From Chloroflexota bacterium (GTDB lineage Bacteria > Chloroflexota > Limnocylindria > Limnocylindrales > CSP1-4): a stretch of 64,000 nt of DNA. This document shows positions 1,016-52,706 of the stretch, one piece after another (within the stretch, counting starts at the first letter, position 1; each line of letters opens with the position of its first letter). The notes beneath the pieces are model-generated. The model was not told the DNA's origin. It saw only the letters and a program-made list of their open reading frames with translations, and did not search any database. The position numbers were made by a program, and so were the translations under genes. Where the stretch lies: assembly GCA_016191395.1 (NCBI GenBank), contig JACPOS010000024.1, positions 23,111 through 87,110 of the forward strand. The letters run 5' to 3'.

Positions 1016-2848
1016 ATGTGTGGAATCGTCGGGTACACCGGGCCTCGGGAGGCCGGCCCGATCCTCATGGAGGGTCTGCGGCGCCTCGAATACCGGGGCT
1101 ATGACTCGGCCGGCATCGCGCTGGTGGACGACCAGGGCGACCTCTTCGTCGAGAAGCGCGCCGGCAAGCTCGGCAACCTGCGCACCGCCATCGCCGAGCG
1201 GACGCCGCACGCGGCCCTCGGGCTCGCGCACACGCGCTGGGCGACCCACGGCCGCCCGAACGACGTCAACGCGCATCCCCAGGTGGACTGCACGGGGCGG
1301 ATCACGGTGATCCACAACGGCATCATCGAGAACTTCCAGGACCTGCGGGACGGGCTGCAGGCACGCGGCCACCGCCTCGTCTCCGAGACCGACACGGAGG
1401 CGATCGCCCACCTGATCGAGGAGGCGTACGAGGGCGACATCGCGGATGCCGCGCGGGCCGCGTTGCGCCAGCTCGAGGGCGCGTACGCGCTCGCGATCAT
1501 GCATCGCGACGAGAACGACCGGCTGGTCGGTGCGCGCAAGGACGTGCCGCTCGTCGTGGGCCTGGGTGATGGCGAGTCGTTCCTCGCGTCCGATGTCGCG
1601 GCGATCCTCGCCCATACCCGCCGGATCATCTTCATGGAGGAGGGCGACGTCGCCGACCTCACGCCGGATCGGGTGACGATCACGGACGTCGCGGGGCGCC
1701 CGGTGGAGCGTGTCGTCGAGACGATCGACTGGACGATCGAGGCCGCGGAGAAGGGTGGCTTCGACACGTTCATGCTCAAGGAGATCCACGAGCAGCCGGA
1801 GGCGCTGCGGCAGTCGCTCACCGGCCGCATCTCCCGCGCCGGCCGGATCCAGGCCCCGGAGCTGGAGCCGATCGCCGGCGCGGTCCAGGCCGCGACTCGC
1901 GTGGAGCTGGTGGCGTGCGGCACGGCGTCGTACGCCGCGATGGTCGGCGCGCGGGCCATCCAGGAGCTGACCGGCATGCCGGCGCGCGTCACGGTGGGCT
2001 CGGAATTCCGCTACGACCCCCCTCCACTGGATGGCACGACGCTGGTCATCGCGGTGACCCAGTCCGGCGAGACCGCCGACACCATCGCCCCGACGCGGCT
2101 CGCGCGCGAACGTGGCTGCCCCATCGTGGCGGTGACGAACACGCTGGGGTCGGCGATCACGCGCGAGGCGGACGCGGTCTTCTTCCTCCAGGCCGGCCCG
2201 GAGATGGCCGTCGCGGCAAGCAAGACGTTCGTCACCCAGGTGACGACGCTGGTCGTGCTCGCGGCCGGCATCGCCCGACTGCGGGGCACGCTCACGGACG
2301 AGGCCGAGGCGTCACTCGTGGAAGGGCTGCGCGCCCTGCCAGCGGCTGCTGCCCGCGCCCTGGAGCTCAACGTGGGACGGGCGCCCGACCTCGCGCGCCG
2401 GTACGTCAACTCGCGGGGCTTCATGTTCGTGGGGCGTGGCGCGACCTATCCGACCGCGCTGGAGGGGGCGCTCAAGCTCAAGGAGATCAGCTACGTCCAC
2501 GCGGAGGGCTACCCGGCGGGCGAGCTGAAGCACGGCCCCATCTCCCTGCTTGACGCCGAGTGCCCGCTCGTGGCGGTCGCGACGCGCTCGTCGGTCTACG
2601 AGAAGCTGATCAGCAACGTGATGGAGGGCCGTGCCCGCGACGCGAAGGTGATCGCGGTCGCGACCGAGGGCGACCAGCACATCGAGCGCATCGCCGACGA
2701 CGTGTGCTGGGTGCCGGACACCCATGAGATGCTGAGCCCCGTGCTCGCGATCATCCCGCTCCAGCTGTTCGCGTATCACGTCGCGCTGGCGCGCGGCACC
2801 GATGTGGACCAGCCGCGAAACCTCGCGAAGTCGGTCACGGTGGAGTAG
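1016..2848 (+). CDS. glmS: Glutamine--fructose-6-phosphate aminotransferase (isomerizing)
   Basis: MCGIVGYTGPR N-terminal nucleophile Cys, two SIS domains, C-terminal PRNLAKSVTVE. Confidence 0.98.
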   Translation: MCGIVGYTGPREAGPILMEGLRRLEYRGYDSAGIALVDDQGDLFVEKRAGKLGNLRTAIAERTPHAALGLAHTRWATHGRPNDVNAHPQVDCTGRITVIHNGIIENFQDLRDGLQARGHRLVSETDTEAIAHLIEEAYEGDIADAARAALRQLEGAYALAIMHRDENDRLVGARKDVPLVVGLGDGESFLASDVAAILAHTRRIIFMEEGDVADLTPDRVTITDVAGRPVERVVETIDWTIEAAEKGGFDTFMLKEIHEQPEALRQSLTGRISRAGRIQAPELEPIAGAVQAATRVELVACGTASYAAMVGARAIQELTGMPARVTVGSEFRYDPPPLDGTTLVIAVTQSGETADTIAPTRLARERGCPIVAVTNTLGSAITREADAVFFLQAGPEMAVAASKTFVTQVTTLVVLAAGIARLRGTLTDEAEASLVEGLRALPAAAARALELNVGRAPDLARRYVNSRGFMFVGRGATYPTALEGALKLKEISYVHAEGYPAGELKHGPISLLDAECPLVAVATRSSVYEKLISNVMEGRARDAKVIAVATEGDQHIERIADDVCWVPDTHEMLSPVLAIIPLQLFAYHVALARGTDVDQPRNLAKSVTVE

Positions 2849-7804: not shown

Positions 7805-8856
7805 CCGAGCGCACGGCAACGGCACCCCCTGCCGAGGAGCGAACGGCCGCGCCGCACGCCGGCACGGCCCTGATCGCGACGCGGACGCTGGTCGTCTCGC
7901 CGGTGGATGCGTTCTTCGGCCTGCAGCCCGGCGACCGCGCCCTGGTGAAGGCCGGCGAGGCGGTCGGCCGCGGACAGCCAATCGTCGAGCACTATCGCGA
8001 CCCGCGCACCATCGTCGTCGCCGGTTCCGGGTCGTCGAATGGCACCAGCGCTCCCGGGGATCGGTGGGCCGAGCCCGCCGGCCGGCAGGGGCGCGAGGGT
8101 GATGCGGCGCCCGGTGGCGAGCTGCTGTTCCGAAGCGGCGGCAAGTGGCGTATCGCGGGCGGTGAGCGGCCCGAGCCGATCGAGGCCCCGTTCGAGGGGA
8201 TCGTCCACGAGGTCAGGGCGGGAACCGGGGTCACCGTCCGCACGACCGCCAGCGCGATCGTCGGTCGCCACGTGCTCGCCGGCCCAACCTGGGGGCGGCT
8301 CCAGATCGTCACCGACCCGGACGGCGAGCTGCGCGCCCAGCACGTCGACGTTGGCGCGGCCGGCGCGATCATCGTGGCGGGGGCGCGGATCGACGCCGAG
8401 GCGCTCACCCGCGCCCGCGCCGTGGGCGTCCGCGGCGTGATCGTCGCCGCGCTGGGCATCAAGGAGCAGCGCGACTTCCTGGCATCCGAGCGGCGCGGCC
8501 GTGCGGCAGTCCATGGGTTGCCGCCGTTCGGGATCCTCGTGCTCGATGGTGCTTCGCGGCGCCCGATCGCGTCGCCGCTCATGGCGATGTTCAAGGCCCT
8601 CGAGGGCAGCACGGTCGCGATCGTGGGCAGCCCGCCGACGCTCGTTGTCGACGACGCGACGGTCGAGCTGCCGAAGCCCTCGCCAGACCTGGTCCGCGTA
8701 CGGTCAGGCCCACTTGCCGGCGCGGAGGGCCGGTGGGTCGGCCTCGCCGGGCCGCGCCGCTTTCCTGCAGGCGTCACGCTGGAGGCCGCCTTCGTCCGGT
8801 TCGGTGGCCGCCCGCCGGTCGCCATCCCGATCGGCGATCTCGAGCGCTTTGCCTGA
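7801..8856 (+). CDS. Hypothetical protein, co-transcribed with GlmL-like gene; KOW-like C-terminus
   Basis: ATG overlaps preceding stop (ATGA); 351 aa; C-terminal VRVRSGPLAGAEGRWVGLAGPRRFPAGV resembles a KOW/SH3-like barrel. Confidence 0.75.
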   Translation: MTERTATAPPAEERTAAPHAGTALIATRTLVVSPVDAFFGLQPGDRALVKAGEAVGRGQPIVEHYRDPRTIVVAGSGSSNGTSAPGDRWAEPAGRQGREGDAAPGGELLFRSGGKWRIAGGERPEPIEAPFEGIVHEVRAGTGVTVRTTASAIVGRHVLAGPTWGRLQIVTDPDGELRAQHVDVGAAGAIIVAGARIDAEALTRARAVGVRGVIVAALGIKEQRDFLASERRGRAAVHGLPPFGILVLDGASRRPIASPLMAMFKALEGSTVAIVGSPPTLVVDDATVELPKPSPDLVRVRSGPLAGAEGRWVGLAGPRRFPAGVTLEAAFVRFGGRPPVAIPIGDLERFA

Positions 8857-8863
8857 CGCTCGG

Positions 8864-9361
8864 GTGGCGACCAGGGAAGAGGCGGCGCTGGAGCTCGACA
8901 GCGGGAGTCCCGATGCGACCCGCACGTTCGCGGCTGCGCTCGCCGCGGTCGCGGTGCCCGGCGACGTGCTGTGCCTGTGGGGCGAGCTCGGTGCGGGCAA
9001 GACGGTGTTTGCGAAGGGCTTCGGCGCGGGCCTCGGGGTGCGAGACACGATCAGCTCGCCGACCTTCGTCCTCATGGGCGAGTACGCGGGCCGCCTGCCG
9101 CTGTTCCACATCGACCTGTACCGGCTCGCATCGGCCACGGAGGCGATCGACGGTGGGCTGCTCGACGACCGCGAGGGGACGGGCGTCGTGCTCATCGAGT
9201 GGCCGGACCGCCTTGGGACGGCACTCCCGGACGATCGGCTCGACGTCCGGATCGACGGTGGTGACGACGACCGCCGAACGTTGCGGCTCGCCGCTCACGG
9301 CCGGGGCCACGACCGCTACCTGGCCACGGCGCTGGCGGCCGGCGCACGGCGCGCGACGTGA
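8864..9361 (+). CDS. tsaE: tRNA threonylcarbamoyladenosine biosynthesis ATPase TsaE
   Basis: LWGELGAGKTVFAKGFGAGLGV Walker A, SPTFVLMGEY, HIDLYRL, IEWPDRL. Confidence 0.94.
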   Translation: MATREEAALELDSGSPDATRTFAAALAAVAVPGDVLCLWGELGAGKTVFAKGFGAGLGVRDTISSPTFVLMGEYAGRLPLFHIDLYRLASATEAIDGGLLDDREGTGVVLIEWPDRLGTALPDDRLDVRIDGGDDDRRTLRLAAHGRGHDRYLATALAAGARRAT

Positions 9362-10044
9362 GCTCCGTCACGCGCGGCCGCGGCTGGCTCCTCGCCCTCG
9401 ATACGGCCACGACCACGATCGTCGTTGCCGCCGGCGACACCGACGGGCGCATCCTGGCCGCCGAGGCGTTCGAGGGGCGGTATCGCCACTCCCAGGAGCT
9501 GCTGCCGGCCGTCGTCCGGGTGCTCGGCAGTGCCGGGCTGAGCCTGCCGGATCTCGCCGGGATCGTCGTCGGGACGGGCCCGGGCGCGTTCACCGGGTTG
9601 CGAGTCGGGATCGCGACGGCGAAGACGCTTGCCCACGAGCTCGGCTGCCCCATCGTGGAGGTGGCATCGTCCTCCGCGCTCCTCGCCGCCGTGCCGGATG
9701 CGACGATCCTCTGGCTGCCGTCCGGACCGAGAGATCGAATCATGGTCGTCCCCGGCTCCGAGCCGGTCGTCGTCCCGGGCGGCAATCCCGGCCCGCGTCC
9801 GCGGCCGCGGTCGGTCGAGATCGCGGTGGACCTCGACGGTCGCGCTCCGGAGGCGGCGCTCGCGCTCGGACGTGCGGCGATCGCCGGGCTGCCCGCGGCC
9901 CTCCTGCAGCTGGGTGCGGCCCGGCTCGCGGCGGGCGAGCACGACGATCAGGAGCAGCTCGTGCCGCGCTACGCGAGCCCGCCGCGTGGCGCGCCGTCGG
10001 GTGAGCAGGAGGGGGGAGTGGCGTGGTCGCGCGACCCCCGGTAG
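9358..10044 (+). CDS. tsaB: tRNA threonylcarbamoyladenosine biosynthesis protein TsaB
   Basis: LLALDTATTTIVVA...RHSQELLP...GTGPGAFTGLRVGIATAKTLA. Confidence 0.94.
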   Translation: MSSVTRGRGWLLALDTATTTIVVAAGDTDGRILAAEAFEGRYRHSQELLPAVVRVLGSAGLSLPDLAGIVVGTGPGAFTGLRVGIATAKTLAHELGCPIVEVASSSALLAAVPDATILWLPSGPRDRIMVVPGSEPVVVPGGNPGPRPRPRSVEIAVDLDGRAPEAALALGRAAIAGLPAALLQLGAARLAAGEHDDQEQLVPRYASPPRGAPSGEQEGGVAWSRDPR

Positions 10045-41811: not shown

Positions 41812-42633
41812 ATGGCGTTCCGGGGGGAACGGTTTCAGGGAACGGATTTGGTGCGCCCGCAGCGCGCCGCGCGGCCGCACGAAGCGCCGCTCGCCGGACG
41901 GATCCGTCGCGGGCTCCGCCTCGATCCGCGCGGCCAGAGCGTCGTGGAGTTCGCGATCAGCGCGCCGGTCGTGCTGCTCATGGTGCTGTTCGGCATCGAC
42001 TTCGGCCGGGTCTTCCTCGGCTGGGTGACGCTGAACAACGCGGTCCGCGAGGCGGCCAATTTCGCCGCCATCAACCCGACCGGGTGGACCTCGCCGGGCA
42101 ACCCGGCGGTCCAGGCGGAGTTCCGGCGCCTCATCACGACCGAGGCGGCGAACATCAACTGCACGCTGCCGGGCACCCTGCCCGATCCCACGTTCCCGAA
42201 CGGCGCCGAGATCGGGTCGCCCGCAGTTGTGGCGATCACCTGCCAGTTCTCGCTCATCACGCCGCTCATCAGCGCCATCCTCGGGAGCCCGATCGACGTG
42301 AGCGCCTCGTCGTCGTTCCCGGTGCGCAGCGGGTCCATCGCCGGGACGCCCGCCGGCGGCGTCCTGCCGACGATCGGCGCATCCGGCGGGCCGACATCAA
42401 CGGCGACGCCTGCCCCTCCCGCCTCGCCGACGCCGGAGCCGATGTGCACGGTGCCCAATCTCAAGAACAAGGACAGCTCGGTCGCGGTCGGCTCGTACTG
42501 GGTGCCCGCCGGGTTCACGGCCGGCAACCTGATCTTCAGCCCGCTCGTGCCGCCGCACTACACCATCAAGAAGCAGTCGATCACGTTCAACAGCTCGGTG
42601 CCGTGCACCTCGACGATGACGGTGCAGCCATGA
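41812..42633 (+). CDS. TadE-like pseudopilin with Pro/Thr linker and C-terminal PASTA-like domain (cassette 1)
   Basis: RGQSVVEFAISAPVVLLMVLFGIDFGRVF TadE helix; C-terminal CTVPNLKNKDSSVAVGSYWVPAGFTAGNLIFSPLVPPHYTIKKQSITFNSSVPCTSTMTV. Confidence 0.82.
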   Translation: MAFRGERFQGTDLVRPQRAARPHEAPLAGRIRRGLRLDPRGQSVVEFAISAPVVLLMVLFGIDFGRVFLGWVTLNNAVREAANFAAINPTGWTSPGNPAVQAEFRRLITTEAANINCTLPGTLPDPTFPNGAEIGSPAVVAITCQFSLITPLISAILGSPIDVSASSSFPVRSGSIAGTPAGGVLPTIGASGGPTSTATPAPPASPTPEPMCTVPNLKNKDSSVAVGSYWVPAGFTAGNLIFSPLVPPHYTIKKQSITFNSSVPCTSTMTVQP

Positions 42634-43142
42634 CGCCGCGTCGCGCCGCCCGCTCCCCGCGTGGGGCCAGGTCTGGCGGTCAGGCACTCGTCGAGTTCGC
42701 GTTCATCTTCCCGCTGATCGCCCTCATCGTCTTCGGGTTCATCGACGTCGGGCGGGCGGTGTTCCAGTCGAACACCCTCACGAACGCGGCCCGCCAGGCG
42801 GCACGCGTCGCATCGGTCAACCAGCTGGATCCCGTGGCGGGCCCATGGACGTGCCTGACTGATCATCCGGTGCAGGATCCGGCCAATCCCGGCTGGACCT
42901 TCCGTGGCTGTGCGGTCGCCGCGGGTGCAACCGCCGGGGTGCAGGCGGGGAACGTGTCGGTCGCCTACGCCGCGCCCCCGGGATCCGCCCTCGAGTGCAC
43001 CCTCGAGATCAACATCGGCTGCATCGTCACCATCACCGTCACCGCGAACTACGTGCCCATCACGCCCGTCGCCGGCCAGGTCATCGGGCCGATCGCCATG
43101 AGCGCCACTTCCTCCATGCCAGTGGAAAGGACTTTCCCGTGA
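42630..43142 (+). CDS. TadE/TadG-like protein (cassette 1)
   Basis: GGQALVEFAFIFPLIALIVFGFIDVGRAVFQSNTLTNAARQAARVASV; ATGA overlap. Confidence 0.87.
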   Translation: MTPRRAARSPRGARSGGQALVEFAFIFPLIALIVFGFIDVGRAVFQSNTLTNAARQAARVASVNQLDPVAGPWTCLTDHPVQDPANPGWTFRGCAVAAGATAGVQAGNVSVAYAAPPGSALECTLEINIGCIVTITVTANYVPITPVAGQVIGPIAMSATSSMPVERTFP

Positions 43143-44443
43143 GTACACGTCAATCCGGCCAGGCGCTGGTGGTCATGGTCGGCGTGATGTTCCTGTCGAT
43201 TGCCATCCTCGCCGTGATCATCGACGGCGGCAACGTGCTGACCCAGCAGCGGGTGGTCCAGGCGGGCTCGGACAGCACCGCGGAGGCGGGTGCCGTGGTG
43301 CTCGCAACGCGGCTGGCGGGCGTCCCGGAGCCGCTCGCCGGGTGGGACGCAACGATCGCGGCGAAGGTCGCGCAGTCCGCGGCCGCGAACAACATGACGG
43401 TGAAGGCCGCGTACTACACGGACATCTGCGGCATTCCGCTCAGGGCGGACGGAACCGCGGCCCTCAAGGTGGACGGCAGCGAGGATCTCGCGGTCGCGAT
43501 GGGCGTCGGCGGCGGGAGCCTGCCCGGCGGCACGGCCACCACGCCGGACTGCCCCGCCCTCACAGTGGGCCCGGTCGCGGGCGTCATGGTCATCGGCGAG
43601 AAGAACGTCGGCACCTTCGTCGCCCGCGCGATCGGCGTGCCATCCGTGGGGGTCAACACGCGCGCCACCGCGGTCGCCGGCTACCTGCAGGGCTACTGCC
43701 CGGCCGACCAGGGCGAGTGGTGCGCCGTCCTGCCCGTGACCATCCCCGTCAACCAGGTCACCTGCGACGGCCAGAACAACGTGGTCCCCGGCAGCACTGC
43801 CTGGCCATGGAACACGGTCCTCACCGTGCCGCTGTGCAAGAACAGCCCGGGCAACGTGGGCTGGCTGGACTGGACGCCGCCGGGGGGCGGTGCGAAGGAG
43901 CTCGTATGCTCCATCGTCAACCCGGACAACCCGCTGATCACCCTGCCCTCGTGGCAGTGGGTGCCCGCGACCGGCAACACGAACGGCGGCGGCAAGTGCG
44001 CCGATGACGACACGGGTATCAGCTACACGGGCGTCGAGGAGGCCATCCGCAAGTACAACGGCCAGATCGTGCTGATCCCGCAGTTCGACCTGACGTGCCT
44101 GGTGAAGAACGGCGATCCGAACCCGGTCAGCACCAAGCCCACCATCGAGACGCCGCCCTACTACGGCTGCCCGAACCTGCCAGGCGGCGGCAACGGCCAG
44201 AACCTCTGGTACCGGATGCCCAGCTTCGCCTTCTTCCAGCTCTGCGATCCCGGGATGGCGGGGTGCTCCGGCCGCAACGGTGCCTACATCCAGGGCAACG
44301 ACGCCGCGGTGTGCGATACGGGCAACGGCGCGACGTCGTGCCTCGTCGGCACGTTCACCGACGTGATGGGTGACGGCACGGTCGGGCCGGGCAACGGCTC
44401 TGGTACCGGCAGCAAGGCCGTGGGTGTGCAGCTGATCAAGTAG
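43139..44443 (+). CDS. TadG-like Cys-rich secreted/surface protein (cassette 1)
   Basis: SGQALVVMVGVMFLSIAILAVIIDGGNVLTQQRVVQAGSDSTAEAGAVVLA; 14 Cys in the extracellular part. Confidence 0.83.
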   Translation: MSTRQSGQALVVMVGVMFLSIAILAVIIDGGNVLTQQRVVQAGSDSTAEAGAVVLATRLAGVPEPLAGWDATIAAKVAQSAAANNMTVKAAYYTDICGIPLRADGTAALKVDGSEDLAVAMGVGGGSLPGGTATTPDCPALTVGPVAGVMVIGEKNVGTFVARAIGVPSVGVNTRATAVAGYLQGYCPADQGEWCAVLPVTIPVNQVTCDGQNNVVPGSTAWPWNTVLTVPLCKNSPGNVGWLDWTPPGGGAKELVCSIVNPDNPLITLPSWQWVPATGNTNGGGKCADDDTGISYTGVEEAIRKYNGQIVLIPQFDLTCLVKNGDPNPVSTKPTIETPPYYGCPNLPGGGNGQNLWYRMPSFAFFQLCDPGMAGCSGRNGAYIQGNDAAVCDTGNGATSCLVGTFTDVMGDGTVGPGNGSGTGSKAVGVQLIK

Positions 44444-44645
44444 TACCCGCGGCGCACGACGGGGGGCCCTTCGGCGGCGCCTCCGGTACGGAAGACCCAA
44501 GGACTACTAACCCCACCAATCGGGACTTCCGCCGAGCCCCTCGCAATGCCGGCCGCAAGGTCCGGATTTCGATACTTCCACAGGCCCAGAAGCGGCCTGA
44601 TGACCGAGGCAGACGGCGCTCGGTCGGGGAAGGCGGACCGCGCGG

Positions 44646-45479
44646 ATGGCATCTCCGGGGATCCACGAGACGGCCGAATCGTCGGCGCACGCGCCGGCCG
44701 CGATGGGCACGAAGCGCGCCCGCCGGCGGTTCCGATTCAGCCTGGATCCCCGCGGCCAGAGCCTCGTGGAGTTCGCGATCAGCTTCCCCGTCGTGATGCT
44801 GATGATCCTGTTCGGCATCGACTTCGGCCGCGTCTTCGTCGGCTGGGTGGAGCTCAACAACACGATGCGCGAGGCCGCCAACTTCGCCGCCATCAATCCG
44901 AATGCGTGGGGCACGCCCGGCAACGCCACGGCGCAGGCGGAGTTCGTCCGGCTGGTCACCGCAGAGGCAACGCCGATCAACTGCACGCTGCCGAACCCGC
45001 TGCCGGTCCCAACGTTCCCGAACGGAACGAACATCGGGCAGCCGGCAATCGTCGCGGTGACGTGCCGGTTCTCGCTGATCACCCCGCTCATCGGCAACAT
45101 CCTGGGCAGCCAGATCAACGTCAGCGCCTCCGCATCCTTCCCGATCCGGAGCGGGCTGATCGGTGACGGCACGACGCGCGGCGGACTGGCCACCTTCGTC
45201 CCGGCCGTCCCGACGGCGACACCCCTCTCGACGCCGGTGCCCACCGCGACCCCGTTCCCGACGCCGTCCGCCATCCCCACGGCCGCGCCAACCTGCAAGG
45301 TGCCCGACTTCGTGAACCTGAACACGAGCCAGGCAACCAACAAGTGGACCAGCGCCGGGTTCCAGGCGAGCCACCTGACCTTCAACCCGCTGGTGCCACC
45401 GAACTACAAGATCAAGAGCCAGAGCCTGACCAAGGGCGACACCGTGGCCTGCACCTCGACCATCATCGTGAAGCCATGA
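44646..45479 (+). CDS. TadE-like pseudopilin with PASTA-like domain (cassette 2)
   Basis: RGQSLVEFAISFPVVMLMILFGIDFGRVFVGW; C-terminal CKVPDFVNLNTSQATNKWTSAGFQASHLTFNPLVPPNYKIKSQSLTKGDTVACTSTIIV. Confidence 0.83.
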   Translation: MASPGIHETAESSAHAPAAMGTKRARRRFRFSLDPRGQSLVEFAISFPVVMLMILFGIDFGRVFVGWVELNNTMREAANFAAINPNAWGTPGNATAQAEFVRLVTAEATPINCTLPNPLPVPTFPNGTNIGQPAIVAVTCRFSLITPLIGNILGSQINVSASASFPIRSGLIGDGTTRGGLATFVPAVPTATPLSTPVPTATPFPTPSAIPTAAPTCKVPDFVNLNTSQATNKWTSAGFQASHLTFNPLVPPNYKIKSQSLTKGDTVACTSTIIVKP

Positions 45480-45973
45480 GGCGCTTCTGGCGAAAGCGGT
45501 CCGCCGGTCAGGCGCTGGTGGAGTTCGCGTTCATCTTCCCGGTGATCGCGCTGCTCGCATTCGGGTTCATCGACATCGGCCGTGCGGTGTTCACGGAGAA
45601 CACGCTGGCAAACGCAGCTCGCGAGGGCTCGCGCGTTGCCGCCGTCAACCAGCTGGACCCGGTGAACGGGCCCTGGCTGTGCCAGTCCAATAAGCCCATC
45701 GAGGACCCGAGCAATCCAGGCTGGACATTCCGCGGCTGCGTGATGACGTCCGGGGCGGCGCTCGGCATCCAGCACGGCGACATCTCGATCAGCTATGCCG
45801 CGCCTCCCGGCACGACCATCACGTGCACGGGCGGGACGCTCACGGTCGGCTGCATCGTGACCGTCACCGTCGTCACGAACTATGTCCCGATCACGCCGGT
45901 CGCAGGGTCCGTCATCGGCCCGATCTCGATGACAGCCACCTCCAGCATGCCGATCGAACGGCTCTTCCCGTAG
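45476..45973 (+). CDS. TadE/TadG-like protein (cassette 2)
   Basis: AGQALVEFAFIFPVIALLAFGFIDIGRAVFTENTLANAAREGSRVAAVNQLDPVNGPW; paralog of 42630-43142. Confidence 0.87.
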   Translation: MRRFWRKRSAGQALVEFAFIFPVIALLAFGFIDIGRAVFTENTLANAAREGSRVAAVNQLDPVNGPWLCQSNKPIEDPSNPGWTFRGCVMTSGAALGIQHGDISISYAAPPGTTITCTGGTLTVGCIVTVTVVTNYVPITPVAGSVIGPISMTATSSMPIERLFP

Positions 45974-45999: not shown

Positions 46000-47331
46000 A
46001 TGTTCGCGCCCAAGCGGCTCATGGCGAAGCGTTCCGGCGAGGCCGGGCAGGCGCTCGTCGTCATGGTCGGGGTCATGCTCCTGTCGATCGCCATGCTCGC
46101 GGTCATCGTCGACGGCGGCAACGTCGTGACGCAGCAGCGCGTGGCCCAGACCGGCGCCGACAGCACGGCAGAGGCGGGCGCGATCGTGCTTGCCCAGCGT
46201 CTCGCGGTCACGACGACGCCGTCGGGCGGCTGGGACGCAGAGGTCGTGGCCAAGCTCGCAGCATCCGCGAGTGCCAACAACGTCGTCGTCAAGGCGGCGT
46301 ACTACACCGATATCTGCGGCATCCCGCTCAAGTCGGACGGAACGGCTGCCCTCAGCGTGGATGGGACCGAGAACCTCGGCGTGGCCATGCGCGTCGGGAG
46401 CGGCGGCCTGCCCGGCGGGTCGGCGACGACCCCGGACTGCCCCAGCCTGAAGGTTGGACCAGTGGCGGGCGTCCTGATCATCGGCGAGAAGACGGTCGGG
46501 GCGTACGTCGCCCGTGCGATCGGCATCCCGACGTTCACGGTCACGACGCGGGCGACCGCGGTTGCCGGTTACCTGCAGGGCTACTGCAGCGCGAGCCAGG
46601 GGACGTACTGCGCGGTCCTGCCCGTGGCGATCCCGGTCAACGTCGTGACCTGCGACGGCCAGAACAACGTCCAGCTCGGGGATCGTCCCTGGGACTGGAA
46701 CACGACGATGACGGTCCCGCTGTGCAAGAACTCACCGGGCAACGTGGGCTGGCTGGACTGGGATCCGCCTGCCGGCGGCGCGCAGGAGATCGTCTGCTCG
46801 ATCATCAACCCGGACAACCCGGCGGTCGTGCTGCCCTCGTGGCACTACGTCGCGGCAACCGGCAACACCAACGGCGGCGGCAAGTGCACCGACGCGGAGA
46901 CGGGCAAGGTCTACACGGGCGTCGAGGACGCGATCCGCAAGTACGACGGCCGTGTCGTCCTCATCCCGCAGTTCGACATGACCTGCCTGACGGGCAACAA
47001 CCAGCCGGACCCAATCAGCACCGATCCGGAGGTGAACAAGGCACCGAACTTCGGCTGCCCGAACGCGCCGGGCGGCGGCAACGGCCAGAACATCTGGTAC
47101 CGAATGCCCAGCTTCGCCTATTTCGAGCTGTGCGAGCCGTCGAACCCGGACTGCGGCGGCCGCTACGGCGCCTACATCCAGGGCAGCGACAGCAACATCT
47201 GCGATACCGGCAACGGGGCCACCTCGTGCCTCGTCGGCAAGTTCATCGACATCCTCGCCACCGGAACCGTTGGACCCGGCGTCGGCTCCGGCACCGGCAG
47301 CAAGACCATCGGGGTCCAGCTCATCAAGTAG
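46000..47331 (+). CDS. TadG-like Cys-rich secreted/surface protein (cassette 2)
   Basis: AGQALVVMVGVMLLSIAMLAVIVDGGNVVTQQRVAQTGADSTAEAGAIVLAQRLA; paralog of 43139-44443 with the same 14 Cys positions. Confidence 0.84.
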   Translation: MFAPKRLMAKRSGEAGQALVVMVGVMLLSIAMLAVIVDGGNVVTQQRVAQTGADSTAEAGAIVLAQRLAVTTTPSGGWDAEVVAKLAASASANNVVVKAAYYTDICGIPLKSDGTAALSVDGTENLGVAMRVGSGGLPGGSATTPDCPSLKVGPVAGVLIIGEKTVGAYVARAIGIPTFTVTTRATAVAGYLQGYCSASQGTYCAVLPVAIPVNVVTCDGQNNVQLGDRPWDWNTTMTVPLCKNSPGNVGWLDWDPPAGGAQEIVCSIINPDNPAVVLPSWHYVAATGNTNGGGKCTDAETGKVYTGVEDAIRKYDGRVVLIPQFDMTCLTGNNQPDPISTDPEVNKAPNFGCPNAPGGGNGQNIWYRMPSFAYFELCEPSNPDCGGRYGAYIQGSDSNICDTGNGATSCLVGKFIDILATGTVGPGVGSGTGSKTIGVQLIK

Positions 47332-47559: not shown

Positions 47560-48087
47560 TTGTTCCGACGCAAGGTGACGAGCGGCGCCGCAGGCGCGAG
47601 CCGAACGAGGGAGTCCGGCCAAGGGCTACTCGAGTTCGCCCTCGTCGCCCCGATCTTGATCCTCCTCGTTATGGCAGTGTTCCAGTTTGCGTACGTGCTT
47701 CAAAGTCAGATGGGCCTTACGAACGCTGTTCGCGAGGCTGCCCGCCGGGCAGCAACAGCGAATGCTGTCGATGAGGCAGGCATGCGCACGTGGGTACTCG
47801 ATCAATTGCAGTACGCGAGCACTGGCCTCTTGGCGACGAATGTGCCGGGCTTCATCTCCAGTCGACTGGGAACTGGGGGTAGCGCCCCATCGGTAACCTT
47901 CTGCACGTACGGCACCAATCAACGGGTCTTGGTGACCGTGACCTATAACCACCCAGTGTTCTTCCCACTCCTGGGTTTTGCCACCGATGCGATCGATGGC
48001 ACACCCGACGGCAGCTGGACGCTCTCTTCGTCAGCCCAGATGCGACTTGAGCATCCATTCTCGACGGCACCTACCTCGACATGTTGA
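47560..48087 (+). CDS. TadE family protein (cassette 3)
   Basis: SGQGLLEFALVAPILILLVMAVFQFAYVLQSQMGLTNAVREAARRAAT; TTG start with GGGGAG RBS. Confidence 0.87.
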   Translation: MFRRKVTSGAAGASRTRESGQGLLEFALVAPILILLVMAVFQFAYVLQSQMGLTNAVREAARRAATANAVDEAGMRTWVLDQLQYASTGLLATNVPGFISSRLGTGGSAPSVTFCTYGTNQRVLVTVTYNHPVFFPLLGFATDAIDGTPDGSWTLSSSAQMRLEHPFSTAPTSTC

Positions 48088-48614
48088 GGAACCGGCACAC
48101 ACCAGCCGGCGGCCAAGCGCTCGTGGAGTTCGCGCTCATCGCTCCTATTCTGTTCTTGTTGCTGTTCGGCATCATTCAGATCGGCCTCGTTATGGCTGCG
48201 CAGAACGGGCTCGTCGACGCCGCGCGTGATGCCGCCCGCCGCGCCGCAACCTACAGAATCAACGCGGACAGCTTTAGCCTCACCGTGTTTCCCTCAATCT
48301 GCGACTCGATCAAGAAGACGTTCGATGATCATCTCAGGCCGTCGATCCCGGGATACTCGAATGCGAACCGGACTCGAACGATCACCTACGAGTGGCAGCA
48401 GGACCCGATCGCCGGACAGTACTTTCTGGTCGCACACGTCGTAGGCACATACAAGAACCCACTGTACGTCCCTCTGGTTAGCCAGTTTCTCGATGGGACG
48501 GACGGCACCAACGATGGCAAGTTGGAGTTGAGGGCAAGCGAGCAGATGCGTGTCGAGAATCCGATCCTTGCGACGCCAACATCGACGGCACCGCAAGTGT
48601 GTACCGGTACATGA
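48081..48614 (+). CDS. TadE family protein (cassette 3)
   Basis: GGQALVEFALIAPILFLLLFGIIQIGLVMAAQNGLVDAARDAARRAAT. Confidence 0.88.
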   Translation: MLRNRHTPAGGQALVEFALIAPILFLLLFGIIQIGLVMAAQNGLVDAARDAARRAATYRINADSFSLTVFPSICDSIKKTFDDHLRPSIPGYSNANRTRTITYEWQQDPIAGQYFLVAHVVGTYKNPLYVPLVSQFLDGTDGTNDGKLELRASEQMRVENPILATPTSTAPQVCTGT

Positions 48615-48628
48615 CGATGAGGAGTCCA

Positions 48629-51139
48629 ATGAGCGACGTCCGCCCGCCCAAGGGCCAGGCCTTGGTGCTCTTTGCCTTGTTTCTCCTCGTCCTCCTCGGC
48701 GTGTCGGCGCTCGCAATCGACTACGCGAACTGGCTGCTCATCGACCGTCAGCTTCAGAACGTTTCGGACCACGCAGCATTGGCGGGCGCGGCAGAATTCA
48801 GCTCGGACTTCACCGCGGGCAATTGCGGCAGTGGCTCAGGTCCGACACAGTGCCTCAATGCCAGGACGCAGGCATGGACGACTCTGTTTCAGGAACTGAA
48901 TCTCTCCGGAAACGCTGGGGCAAGTGCGGCAATTGCCCAGCTCGCTCAGACAGATAGTCCGGCGGTCGGCGTTCAAGAGGTCACCCCTGTCGGCTTCCCG
49001 AAGATTGTCTTCAACCACACGATCTGGGTATCGACGCCGCCACCGACCAATTCGAACGGACATGTCGAATACACGCAGGTCGGCGGGAAGTACGCCGGGA
49101 GCTTCGGCATCATGTTCGTCCGGGTCGACCGGCCAACCCGATCCTATTTGGGAGGCGTGCTTGGCATTCGACCTGGAGACCGAACGGGATGGGCAACGGC
49201 AGGGATTCTTCCAACGGACTTCGCGTTGGAGGTCTTTTGTCGTGATCAGATTGCGCCAGAGCCCGGCGTATGCTCCACGACGGCAAGCCTCGGAATCGCA
49301 GGTGGCGGAGGGATCAGCCTTGATCGCGGCGACGTCGGGAGCAACAACAGCGTCAAGGTGACGTCGGCGGTTGGGCCGGGCGTTGTCGTTAAGGCTGGAA
49401 ACGTGTTCGTCGTCGAAGGTTCGTGTGGTCAGCTTTGGAACTGCCCACCAGCAACCGCAGGCGGAATCTCGGACGGCAGCGGCACCGCAAAGAACGCGTT
49501 CTACATCCCGCCATTTCCGGTTCCGAACTACGCGCTGCCAACGGGTATTGACAATCAAGATTGCGCGACAGGCCCGTGCGTCCCCGGCACGGGTGCCAAC
49601 GGCGCGACTCCCATCGACTGGAGCTGCTCCGGATCAGCATGTGGAACCCCAACGCGTCCGAACGGAATCAACGACCCAAGCGTTCGGTGCACTGGAGCGT
49701 CTGGAGCAACGCAGCAGCACCTTGTCCCGGTCGCCGACATTACAACCACAAACTTCAAGGGCACTGCAAGTGGGGCAACGAACAACAACATCTACCGAAA
49801 CATCAACACCTCGTCGGTTGACCCAGCAGGAACTGCTATCCCACTCCCGCCGTCCGCCTCGACGCCATTTCCGACGACACCCGGGCCGACTGACCAGGTC
49901 TACAGCACCAACGGGAACAACGCGACATACGTTGTTCAGCTCGCCACGCCCAATGGAACGATTCAGGCTGGATCCCAGATCTACGCACGATTTGTGCTGT
50001 TCCGAACGACTGGCAGCGGTGGGAGCGCGGGATCATACGACTCGGTCGCAAGTGGAACCGCATTCACGCCAACAGTGGTTGCCCAGCTAATGGAAAAGCG
50101 CAGCGGAGTGTGGACCCCGATCGGGTCCGCAACGGCGTCGCTGGACGCAACTACCGTCATGACTGCATACCAGATTCCTCAGGTTAGTTCTGCATCGCTG
50201 CAAAGTGCCAACAATCCCACTCTTGGAATCAAGTTCACTGTTACGTCGGGTGGGTCAGGTGCCAACGCACGAGGGGCAGGTATTAGTTGGGCCGAGGCCT
50301 ACATCGATACACCGCCGGTACCGCCGCCTCCGCCGATGATCCCCCCAGGGATGTATCGATCGATCTCAATCGCGAGCGGCGGGTGCGCGGTGCTGGACCC
50401 CACCGGCCTCTATAGTTCGCCGTCAGGGCTCGCTCACAACCAGATGCCCGGCGTCTATTACTTCAAGGACGGTGGCACCGGCAACCAGAAGCCGACCATC
50501 TTCCTCGATACGGGATCGTATTTGATCGGGGATGGGGTAACTCTTGTCTTCGACCCCAACTGGCCTGATCCATCAGGGCAACAGGGAATCGCAGTCGGCG
50601 CGAACTCCGCTCTGGTCATCAACACGGCACGGAACACGGCACCAAACTGCTCGACTTGGTATGCGACAAACCAGTCGTATCCCCTGTGTCCGCTCCCATG
50701 GGATGCGTTGGCGGCCGCGTGGATGATCGATCCTGCGAACCCGTCGGCTAACGCGAGCTCGCCGTGGGGTGGAGCCTGTGCCGAAGTGACGCCATGCTCG
50801 GTGGCTCGCAGCTCGTATGCACCAACTGCGAACTACCGCGGAGTCAGTTTTTATCTCCGACCGAAGACGAACGGCTCGACCAATCCGGCAGACTACTCCG
50901 TGCTCGGCCGCTTCTCGATCTCCGGCAACGCCGGCTCGGAGCCGGGCATCGCGTTCAGAGGCATCCTCTACGCGCCGTACGACAATGTCACGATCACTGG
51001 TGGGAACGGGTTCAACACCATCGGTATGGTATTGAGCTGGACGGCAAAGTTCGCCGGGCAAGCAACCATCAAGTTGGACTACCCATACACGAGGGTCATT
51101 TCCCCGCCGTACCTGATCGAACCCACCGTCGGCCAGTAG
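48629..51139 (+). CDS. Large TadG-like surface protein (cassette 3)
   Basis: KGQALVLFALFLLVLLGVSALAIDYANWLLIDRQLQNVSDHAALAGAAEF; ~836 aa with internal VPPPPPMIPP linker; RBS AGGAG before ATG 48629. Confidence 0.83.
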   Translation: MSDVRPPKGQALVLFALFLLVLLGVSALAIDYANWLLIDRQLQNVSDHAALAGAAEFSSDFTAGNCGSGSGPTQCLNARTQAWTTLFQELNLSGNAGASAAIAQLAQTDSPAVGVQEVTPVGFPKIVFNHTIWVSTPPPTNSNGHVEYTQVGGKYAGSFGIMFVRVDRPTRSYLGGVLGIRPGDRTGWATAGILPTDFALEVFCRDQIAPEPGVCSTTASLGIAGGGGISLDRGDVGSNNSVKVTSAVGPGVVVKAGNVFVVEGSCGQLWNCPPATAGGISDGSGTAKNAFYIPPFPVPNYALPTGIDNQDCATGPCVPGTGANGATPIDWSCSGSACGTPTRPNGINDPSVRCTGASGATQQHLVPVADITTTNFKGTASGATNNNIYRNINTSSVDPAGTAIPLPPSASTPFPTTPGPTDQVYSTNGNNATYVVQLATPNGTIQAGSQIYARFVLFRTTGSGGSAGSYDSVASGTAFTPTVVAQLMEKRSGVWTPIGSATASLDATTVMTAYQIPQVSSASLQSANNPTLGIKFTVTSGGSGANARGAGISWAEAYIDTPPVPPPPPMIPPGMYRSISIASGGCAVLDPTGLYSSPSGLAHNQMPGVYYFKDGGTGNQKPTIFLDTGSYLIGDGVTLVFDPNWPDPSGQQGIAVGANSALVINTARNTAPNCSTWYATNQSYPLCPLPWDALAAAWMIDPANPSANASSPWGGACAEVTPCSVARSSYAPTANYRGVSFYLRPKTNGSTNPADYSVLGRFSISGNAGSEPGIAFRGILYAPYDNVTITGGNGFNTIGMVLSWTAKFAGQATIKLDYPYTRVISPPYLIEPTVGQ

Positions 51140-51158: not shown

Positions 51159-52706
51159 CTACGGGCCCGGCGCGGGAGTTGCCGGGTCGGGGGTGGGCGT
51201 CGGCTTGCCGCCGGGCTTGCTCGTCGGCGACGGCCCGGGGGTTGCCGGGGCCTGGGTCGGTTCGAGCGTGGGCTCGGTGGTCGACTGCGGTGTCGACGTC
51301 GAGGTCGGAACCGGGGTTGGGGTCGGCGGCGGCGCTGAGCAGGTGACGGCGGGGAGCTTCGTCTTCGGCGGGTCGGTGGAGTCCTCGGGGATCGTCTCGA
51401 GGCCCGTCGGGAGCGTGCCGGCGACGGGGAATGCCCGCGCGGCGAGGTCGCGGATTGCTGCCAGGTCCGGGATCAGCACGGAGCCGCGCGGGTCGTTGCT
51501 GGCGCCGTGGACCAGCGGGTACTGGATCACCGCTCGGTAGATGTGATCGCGCCCGATGCCGATCGCAGTGGGCAGGTAGGTGCCGATCGTGCTCGGATCG
51601 AGGCTCGTCTGGACCAGCTCGCCCATGCCTTCGATCAAGGCTGCCGGGTCATTGAGGAAGCCGCCGCGAACGAGCTGGTCGCGCGCCGCGACCACGATGT
51701 CGCCCTGGCGTGCGGCGCGGGTGAAGTCGCTCTCGCCGTAGGAGTGGCGGATGCGCGCGTAGGCGAGGGCGCCCTCGCCGTCGAGGTGGTAACGGCCGGG
51801 GTTGATCGCGAAGCCGTCGAACCCGTACTCGCGGTAGCGGTAGTCGCACAGTCGATCGCGAACGGTGACGTCGACGCCTCCGATCGCATCGATGACCTTG
51901 ACGAAGCCGGGCAGGTTCACCTGGGCCCAGCCATCGATGCGGACGTTCAGCAGCGTGCCGAGCGCCGCCGCGAGCACCGCCTGGCCCGACGTCGCGCCGG
52001 GGAACTTACTCGGGTTTCGATTGGCGTACGACGCGAGCTCGTTGATCTTCGATCGGAACGTTCGACCGTCCGGCAGCGGCACGTCCACGGTGTCACGCGG
52101 CACAGAGACCATCGACACGGTGCCGGCGACGGGGTCCAGTGAGGCGACGATCATCGTGTCGGTGAGCGCGTGGCTGCGATCCGGGCCGGAATCCGTGCCG
52201 ATGAGCAGGACCGTGAACCGGCCGAGCTCGGGGCCCGGTGACGGCGGGTTCGACTCGACCGGGGCGATACCGAAGTCGTCGTCGTGGCTGTCGTTGATGC
52301 CGGTGGGGACCCATGGCTGCTCGACGGGCGCGAAGACGGTCATTGCCGCCTCGCGGGCGACCTCGGTCAGGTAGGCGGCGTAGACGCTCGGGACGAGCAC
52401 GAAGACGAGTGCCACGGCGGTGAGTGCCGCACCTCGCTCCCGCGCCGCGCCCGCGCCGCGCCGGAATGCGTCCGCGACGGCTGCGAGGCGCCACACCAGC
52501 AGGAGGCCCTCCGCGATCAGGAGCGCCGCGATGAAGTCGGGATTGAGCAGCAGCGCGAGCTTGGACACGCGATCGGGCGCGGCGAGGGCCGCGGCGACGA
52601 GGAACAGCAGGAGCAGCGGCGGCGCGGCGAGGAGCCAGCCGGCGCGCCGGGCGCCCTCCGACAGCTGCCCGAGGCCCGGCCACAGGGCAGACAGGAGCGC
52701 GGCCAC
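51159..52706 (-). CDS. LytR-CpsA-Psr (LCP) family protein with Pro/Thr-rich C-terminal tail
   Basis: VLLIGTDSGPDRSHALTDTMIVASLDPVAGTVSMVSVPRDTVDVPLPDG...KINELASYAN...GGVDVTV...GEGALAYARIRHSYGESDFTRAARQGDIV. Confidence 0.92.
   Translation of the reverse strand: MAALLSALWPGLGQLSEGARRAGWLLAAPPLLLLFLVAAALAAPDRVSKLALLLNPDFIAALLIAEGLLLVWRLAAVADAFRRGAGAARERGAALTAVALVFVLVPSVYAAYLTEVAREAAMTVFAPVEQPWVPTGINDSHDDDFGIAPVESNPPSPGPELGRFTVLLIGTDSGPDRSHALTDTMIVASLDPVAGTVSMVSVPRDTVDVPLPDGRTFRSKINELASYANRNPSKFPGATSGQAVLAAALGTLLNVRIDGWAQVNLPGFVKVIDAIGGVDVTVRDRLCDYRYREYGFDGFAINPGRYHLDGEGALAYARIRHSYGESDFTRAARQGDIVVAARDQLVRGGFLNDPAALIEGMGELVQTSLDPSTIGTYLPTAIGIGRDHIYRAVIQYPLVHGASNDPRGSVLIPDLAAIRDLAARAFPVAGTLPTGLETIPEDSTDPPKTKLPAVTCSAPPPTPTPVPTSTSTPQSTTEPTLEPTQAPATPGPSPTSKPGGKPTPTPDPATPAPGP

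Follow-up and report, generated by a model that had tools for sequence, protein, structure and literature searches.

Two neighboring ORFs of an uncultured Chloroflexota bacterium each encode a small TadE minor pilin that ends in a PASTA domain. This domain is otherwise familiar from cell wall-sensing kinases and penicillin-binding proteins (PBPs). The ORFs were found in a stretch of 64,000 nucleotides, which was analyzed as a whole and is called the window. Judged from the sequence comparisons and the predicted fold, the C-terminal domain of both TadE proteins is PASTA. The proteins are probably modular Tad minor pilins that form interchangeable tip complexes, in which PASTA would be the displayed binding head. 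Modular minor pilins are already known, and what appears to be new at the sequence level is the placement of PASTA on a TadE minor pilin of the Tad type. In full-text literature searches, no TadE-PASTA or other pilin-PASTA protein was described and nothing relevant was found for Limnocylindria with Tad, in agreement with the initial annotation, which knew of no such architecture.

PASTA domain of the TadE proteins

Both ORFs matched the TadE family (PF07811) above the Pfam cutoff, i.e., E = 1.2e-14 for copy 1 and 5.2e-12 for copy 2. The start of the helix, RG↓QS(V/L)VEF, shows the G↓xxxxE pattern of prepilin peptidase substrates, and cleavage was predicted before Gln-Ser. The TadE head holds two conserved cysteines (C113 and C140 in copy 2), and a linker rich in Pro, Thr, Ser, and Ala joins it to a C-terminal domain of 61–62 residues. 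The two ORFs were located at the coordinates given in the initial annotation, and the TadE start, the linker, and the Cys-bracketed last segment, all proposed there, were present in both. The start codons of both ORFs are not certain, and copy 2 has an alternative ATG at 44703.

Table 1. Pilin genes and PASTA domains located in the window.
Feature	Position	Strand	Description
TadE-PASTA minor pilin, copy 1	41812..42633	+	273 aa; leader, G↓QSVVE, TadE helix and head, Pro/Thr linker, PASTA
Cys-bracketed PASTA domain, copy 1	42445..42630	+	residues 212-273; 82.5 bits to profile A1 (itself a member)
TadE partner pilin 2a	42630..43142	+	170 aa; ATGA overlap with stop of copy 1
TadG-like pilin a	43139..44443	+	434 aa, 14 Cys; GTGA overlap with stop of TadE 2a
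TadE-PASTA minor pilin, copy 2	44646..45479	+	277 aa; AlphaFold model
Cys-bracketed PASTA domain, copy 2	45294..45476	+	residues 217-277; Cys217 and Cys269
TadE partner pilin 2b	45476..45973	+	165 aa; ATGA overlap with stop of copy 2
TadG-like pilin b	46000..47331	+	443 aa, 14 Cys; 26 bases after TadE 2b
First TadE, third cassette, without PASTA	47560..48087	+	
Second TadE, third cassette, without PASTA	48081..48614	+	
Large TadG-like protein, third cassette	48599..51139	+	846 aa; PF13400

In Pfam search, full-length copy 2 reached 18.4 bits against PF03793 (cutoff 23.2), and full-length copy 1 had no PASTA match at all. Therefore, the domain is overlooked by standard annotation. The isolated domain of copy 2 scored 23.3 bits, just over the cutoff, and the domain of copy 1 alone was not matched to PASTA in Pfam. 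PASTA was matched by 12 of the 32 homologous domains, and other Pfam families occurred as single weak matches. NCBIfam search matched nothing meaningful. By phmmer, the single domain of copy 1 found no match in the PDB, and a profile was needed. The profile of the 32 domains found PASTA structures of PknB, with 2kui as the best (E = 9.4e-6).

Because the first iterated profile had taken in a kinase PASTA, a kinase-free profile was rebuilt for the reciprocal test. Over 399 Chloroflexota genomes, it recovered the PASTA domains of PknB-type kinases. Three kinase PASTA domains of other Chloroflexota scored 24–26 bits, against a maximum of 5.5 bits in 200 shuffles each. For the PknB kinase of the own genome, the first PASTA reached 18.2 bits when isolated (shuffle maximum 6.5), and the best domain only 11.2 bits when the full protein was searched. 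The second PASTA of this kinase did not clearly exceed the shuffles with the same profile.

The AlphaFold model of the copy 2 domain had a pLDDT of 92.9. In Foldseek search against the PDB, ranks 1 to 31 were all PASTA structures, with TM-scores (query) of 0.55–0.77, and nothing else was credible. The E-values, of which 2.5e-3 was the best, were modest owing to the short length of the domain (64 residues). PASTA likewise ranked first for the full-length model of copy 2. The segment had been taken as PASTA from its sequence pattern in the initial annotation. The sequence profile and the reciprocal search bear this out, and structure prediction, which could have returned a non-PASTA fold, gave the PASTA fold.

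Four residues of the domain (C1, F23, Q43, and C53) were invariant in the 32 homologues. The domain shares the sequence profile and the predicted fold with the PASTA of PknB/PrkC kinases and PBP2x/PBP1. It differs from them in being pilin-linked and usually single, and in the conserved Cys bracket and W18, a helix residue that is near-invariant in pilin-linked PASTA. It is hardly credible that the domain is a convergent Cys-containing pilin tail which resembles PASTA by chance. The Pfam scores, below threshold for full-length copy 2 and absent for copy 1, would fit such a tail, but the profile, reciprocal, and structural searches yielded PASTA and no other family, and a canonical PASTA lacking the cysteines also sits on a TadE protein at locus L077. 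These results already contradict a chance match. Nor is the likeness a matter of chance, since many genomes of the class encode TadE followed by this module.

Cysteines were counted in the non-redundant domains recovered by the profile. One cysteine directly precedes the domain or stands a short distance upstream of it, and the other is near the last strand. Both were present in all untruncated pilin-linked copies (46/46), whereas kinase or other copies had neither (0/7). The Fisher value for the pair against pilin linkage was 1.6e-7, which overstates independence because the sequences are related. Outside of the profile-found set, the Pfam-significant PASTA of L077 is an exception. The cysteines had been noted earlier as bracketing the segment, and the counts confirm this, the two behaving as a linked unit. 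VKOR, a disulfide-generating enzyme, is encoded in the own genome, which makes a disulfide plausible. Given this co-occurrence, it is likely that a pair of the Cys217-Cys269 type closes the PASTA domain as one disulfide.

Gene cassettes and the Tad machine

Each PASTA cassette is opened by the TadE-PASTA gene and has the order TadE-PASTA, TadE, TadG. Stop/start overlaps of 4 bases join TadE-PASTA to the second TadE in both window cassettes. Counterparts of the two cassettes are 61% identical for TadE-PASTA (approximately 74% in the head and 51% in the last domain), 66% for the second TadE, and 72% for the TadG-like protein. The Pfam Tad match of TadG-like pilin a was slightly under the cutoff, and the TadG-like proteins of the window cassettes had no recognized extra domain. 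In the large TadG-like protein of the third cassette, PF13400 was matched at the N-terminus only, and the remainder had no Pfam match. In total, the genome has three TadE-PASTA/TadE/TadG cassettes, i.e., two in the window and one on contig C22, and one TadE/TadE/TadG cassette. Convergent with the pilin cluster is a gene (51159-52706, minus strand) whose product belongs to the LytR-CpsA-Psr family and has a tail rich in Pro and Thr.

The tad assembly operon, i.e., two flp genes, cpaB, tadZ, tadA, tadB, and tadC, was found on contig C30, separate from the window. The two Flp-like pilins have 56 residues each and were slightly under the Pfam cutoff. Eight TadE genes were detected in the genome, six in the window and two on contig C22, and none of them lies beside this machine. 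The window genes were linked to the C30 machine because it is the sole operon recognized as Tad type, beside a second match of the T2SSE family on contig C9. The genome also encodes one prepilin peptidase (a PF01478 protein) and four transpeptidase PBPs. Secretin was not detected in this genome, which is 90% complete.

Most of the related loci read had the same gene order, TadE-PASTA, TadE, TadG. The C-terminal position of the first TadE is taken in relatives by PASTA, PKD, PKD-PKD-PASTA, or three PASTA copies. Both Pfam cutoffs, for TadE and for PASTA, were clearly passed in two relatives. L077 scored 46.3 bits for TadE and 44.8 bits for PASTA, with a weak PKD match behind them, and L056, a TadE with three PASTA copies, scored 48.7 bits for PASTA. 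Tandem PASTA was found in L056, L080, and L082. The TadE-PKD-PKD-PASTA protein of L065 (2702-4006, plus strand) is placed at the position equivalent to the first cassette of the window. In L077, the gene of the Cys-less PASTA and PKD-like TadE (8574-9737, plus strand) adjoins two Cys-bracketed TadE-PASTA genes. From this locus, PASTA may have been acquired by TadE more than once. In L082 (2195-3889, plus strand), a TadE with up to three PASTA is in frame with the next TadE across a GGC/GGT run, and a prepilin peptidase-like site stands directly after this glycine run. The in-frame fusion is a hint that TadE-PASTA and the following TadE act together.

Proposed tip complexes and other possible roles of PASTA

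Minor pilins prime the type 4 filament and remain at its end, and grafted domains give them binding capacity (PMC10191384). In the Kil pilus of Myxococcus, four sets of TadE/F/G-type pilins are interchangeable Tips, with variable domains at the end and predicted disulfides (PMC12075869). In the proposed working of the Chloroflexota cassettes, TadE-PASTA would be made with a short cytoplasmic leader, and the prepilin peptidase would cut before Gln-Ser. The TadE helix would join the second TadE and the TadG-like protein, both encoded directly downstream, into a three-pilin tip complex, which would prime and cap the Flp filament of the Tad (type IVc) pilus. As a binding head, PASTA may be kept at a distance from the pilin bundle by the Pro/Thr-rich stalk, and one disulfide formed outside the membrane would probably close the domain. 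With several cassettes and differing heads, i.e., PASTA here and tandem PASTA, PKD, or both in relatives, one machine could be equipped with several tips. We infer tip incorporation, disulfide formation, and surface display. The position of the window cassettes far from the tad operon counts against this explanation, as do the modest Foldseek E-values and the domain of copy 1, which had no Pfam PASTA match on its own.

The closest comparison is with the Kil Tips of Myxococcus xanthus (KilL/KilM/KilN, TadE/F/G-like), in which several three-gene sets of minor pilins serve one Tad machine, as here (PMC12075869). The sets of both systems have variable C-terminal domains and many cysteines (PMC12075869). 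However, the variable head of Kil is placed on the TadG-like KilN, a point that also weighs against the tip reading, whereas the added domain in Chloroflexota is on the first TadE and is PASTA. Because of this difference in subunit, the Chloroflexota sets were classed as functionally comparable to the Kil Tips but were not counted among them. Unlike Myxococcus with its Kil system, this host has no detectable secretin and no evidence of predation. PilB and PilC of Streptococcus sanguinis likewise have a non-pilin adhesive domain grafted on a minor pilin via a linker (PMC10191384). Those pilins belong to type IVa and bear lectin and vWA heads, whereas the Chloroflexota proteins are of the Tad type (IVc) with a PASTA head.

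The ligand of the displayed head is the most speculative part, and peptidoglycan or a muropeptide is suggested. Peptidoglycan is the first candidate because the kinases PknB and PrkC bind muropeptides through their PASTA regions (PMC3601408). The full proposal, i.e., that the Tad pili of this Chloroflexota class have interchangeable tips which recognize peptidoglycan or muropeptides by a disulfide-stabilized PASTA head on TadE, is tentative and, taken as a whole, rather doubtful. If true, a cell without detected secretin would touch, sense, or grip its own wall or the walls of other cells.

The same muropeptide binding (PMC3601408) could also serve a wall anchor, as the initial annotation had suggested. 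PASTA would then bind peptidoglycan of the cell itself, and a short pseudopilus or the pilus base would be fixed to a monoderm-like wall. The four transpeptidase PBPs and the adjoining LytR-CpsA-Psr gene are in line with an anchor. No secretin was detected, so the fiber would have peptidoglycan alone to cross. However, minor pilins are reported at the tip (PMC10191384, PMC12075869), and PASTA is usually single here, whereas wall sensors have several in tandem. PKD replaces or accompanies PASTA at the same position, which is unexpected for a dedicated anchor. This swap suggests a general displayed binding head, and PKD at this position agrees no less well with such a head than with a wall anchor. 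An anchoring role is thus considered unlikely, though worth keeping in mind. PASTA and PKD could instead be stacked rigid domains that lengthen or stabilize the tip and bind no ligand. The interchange with PKD, the tandem PASTA of L056, L080, and L082, and the four copies of L103 agree with such a spacer, but a lone head behind a flexible linker adds little length, and the single domains are strongly conserved, including the PLVPPxY loop in the genus group. A role as spacer is accordingly improbable.

For the preferred reading, a binding head on interchangeable tips, PASTA on Tad minor pilins, the Cys pair, and the interchange with PKD would extend the idea of adaptable tips to Chloroflexota. 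The expressible domain of approximately 60 residues offers a handle on binding by Tad tips and on PASTA ligands beyond wall sensing.

Distribution and descent of the cassettes

Among 177 genomes of the class, matches were found in 23 by single-query search and in 37 by profile search. A few of the weakest profile matches lie in frames over 600 aa and are probably kinases. In the phylum sample, the kinase-free profile matched 24 of 399 Chloroflexota genomes. Eight of the 24 were outside the class and were mostly kinases, with L103, from a Chloroflexota genome of another family, as a striking exception. The L103 protein (1096-2718, minus strand) has a pilin-type N-terminus (RGQSIVEYALTLVLIFLLARG), four tandem Cys-bracketed PASTA domains, and a further C-terminal region. 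A scan of genome contigs found nothing with copy 2 as a single query and 20 loci with the alignment as the query, all of Chloroflexota MAGs. Other phyla were covered solely by this narrow alignment-pattern scan of genome contigs.

The PKD-PASTA proteins formed one group in a tree built from the TadE heads. Copy 2 was placed with its sister-species counterpart, and copy 1 was excluded from this pair (support 99/82), so the tandem sets are old. A recent duplication or an assembly duplication of the two copies was ruled out by this tree.

The same Cys-bracketed PASTA was also found at the C-terminus of DnaJ-domain proteins in L062 (1-1689, plus strand) and L063 (1492-2925, minus strand). These proteins have a putative transmembrane segment and a long Pro/Thr linker before PASTA.
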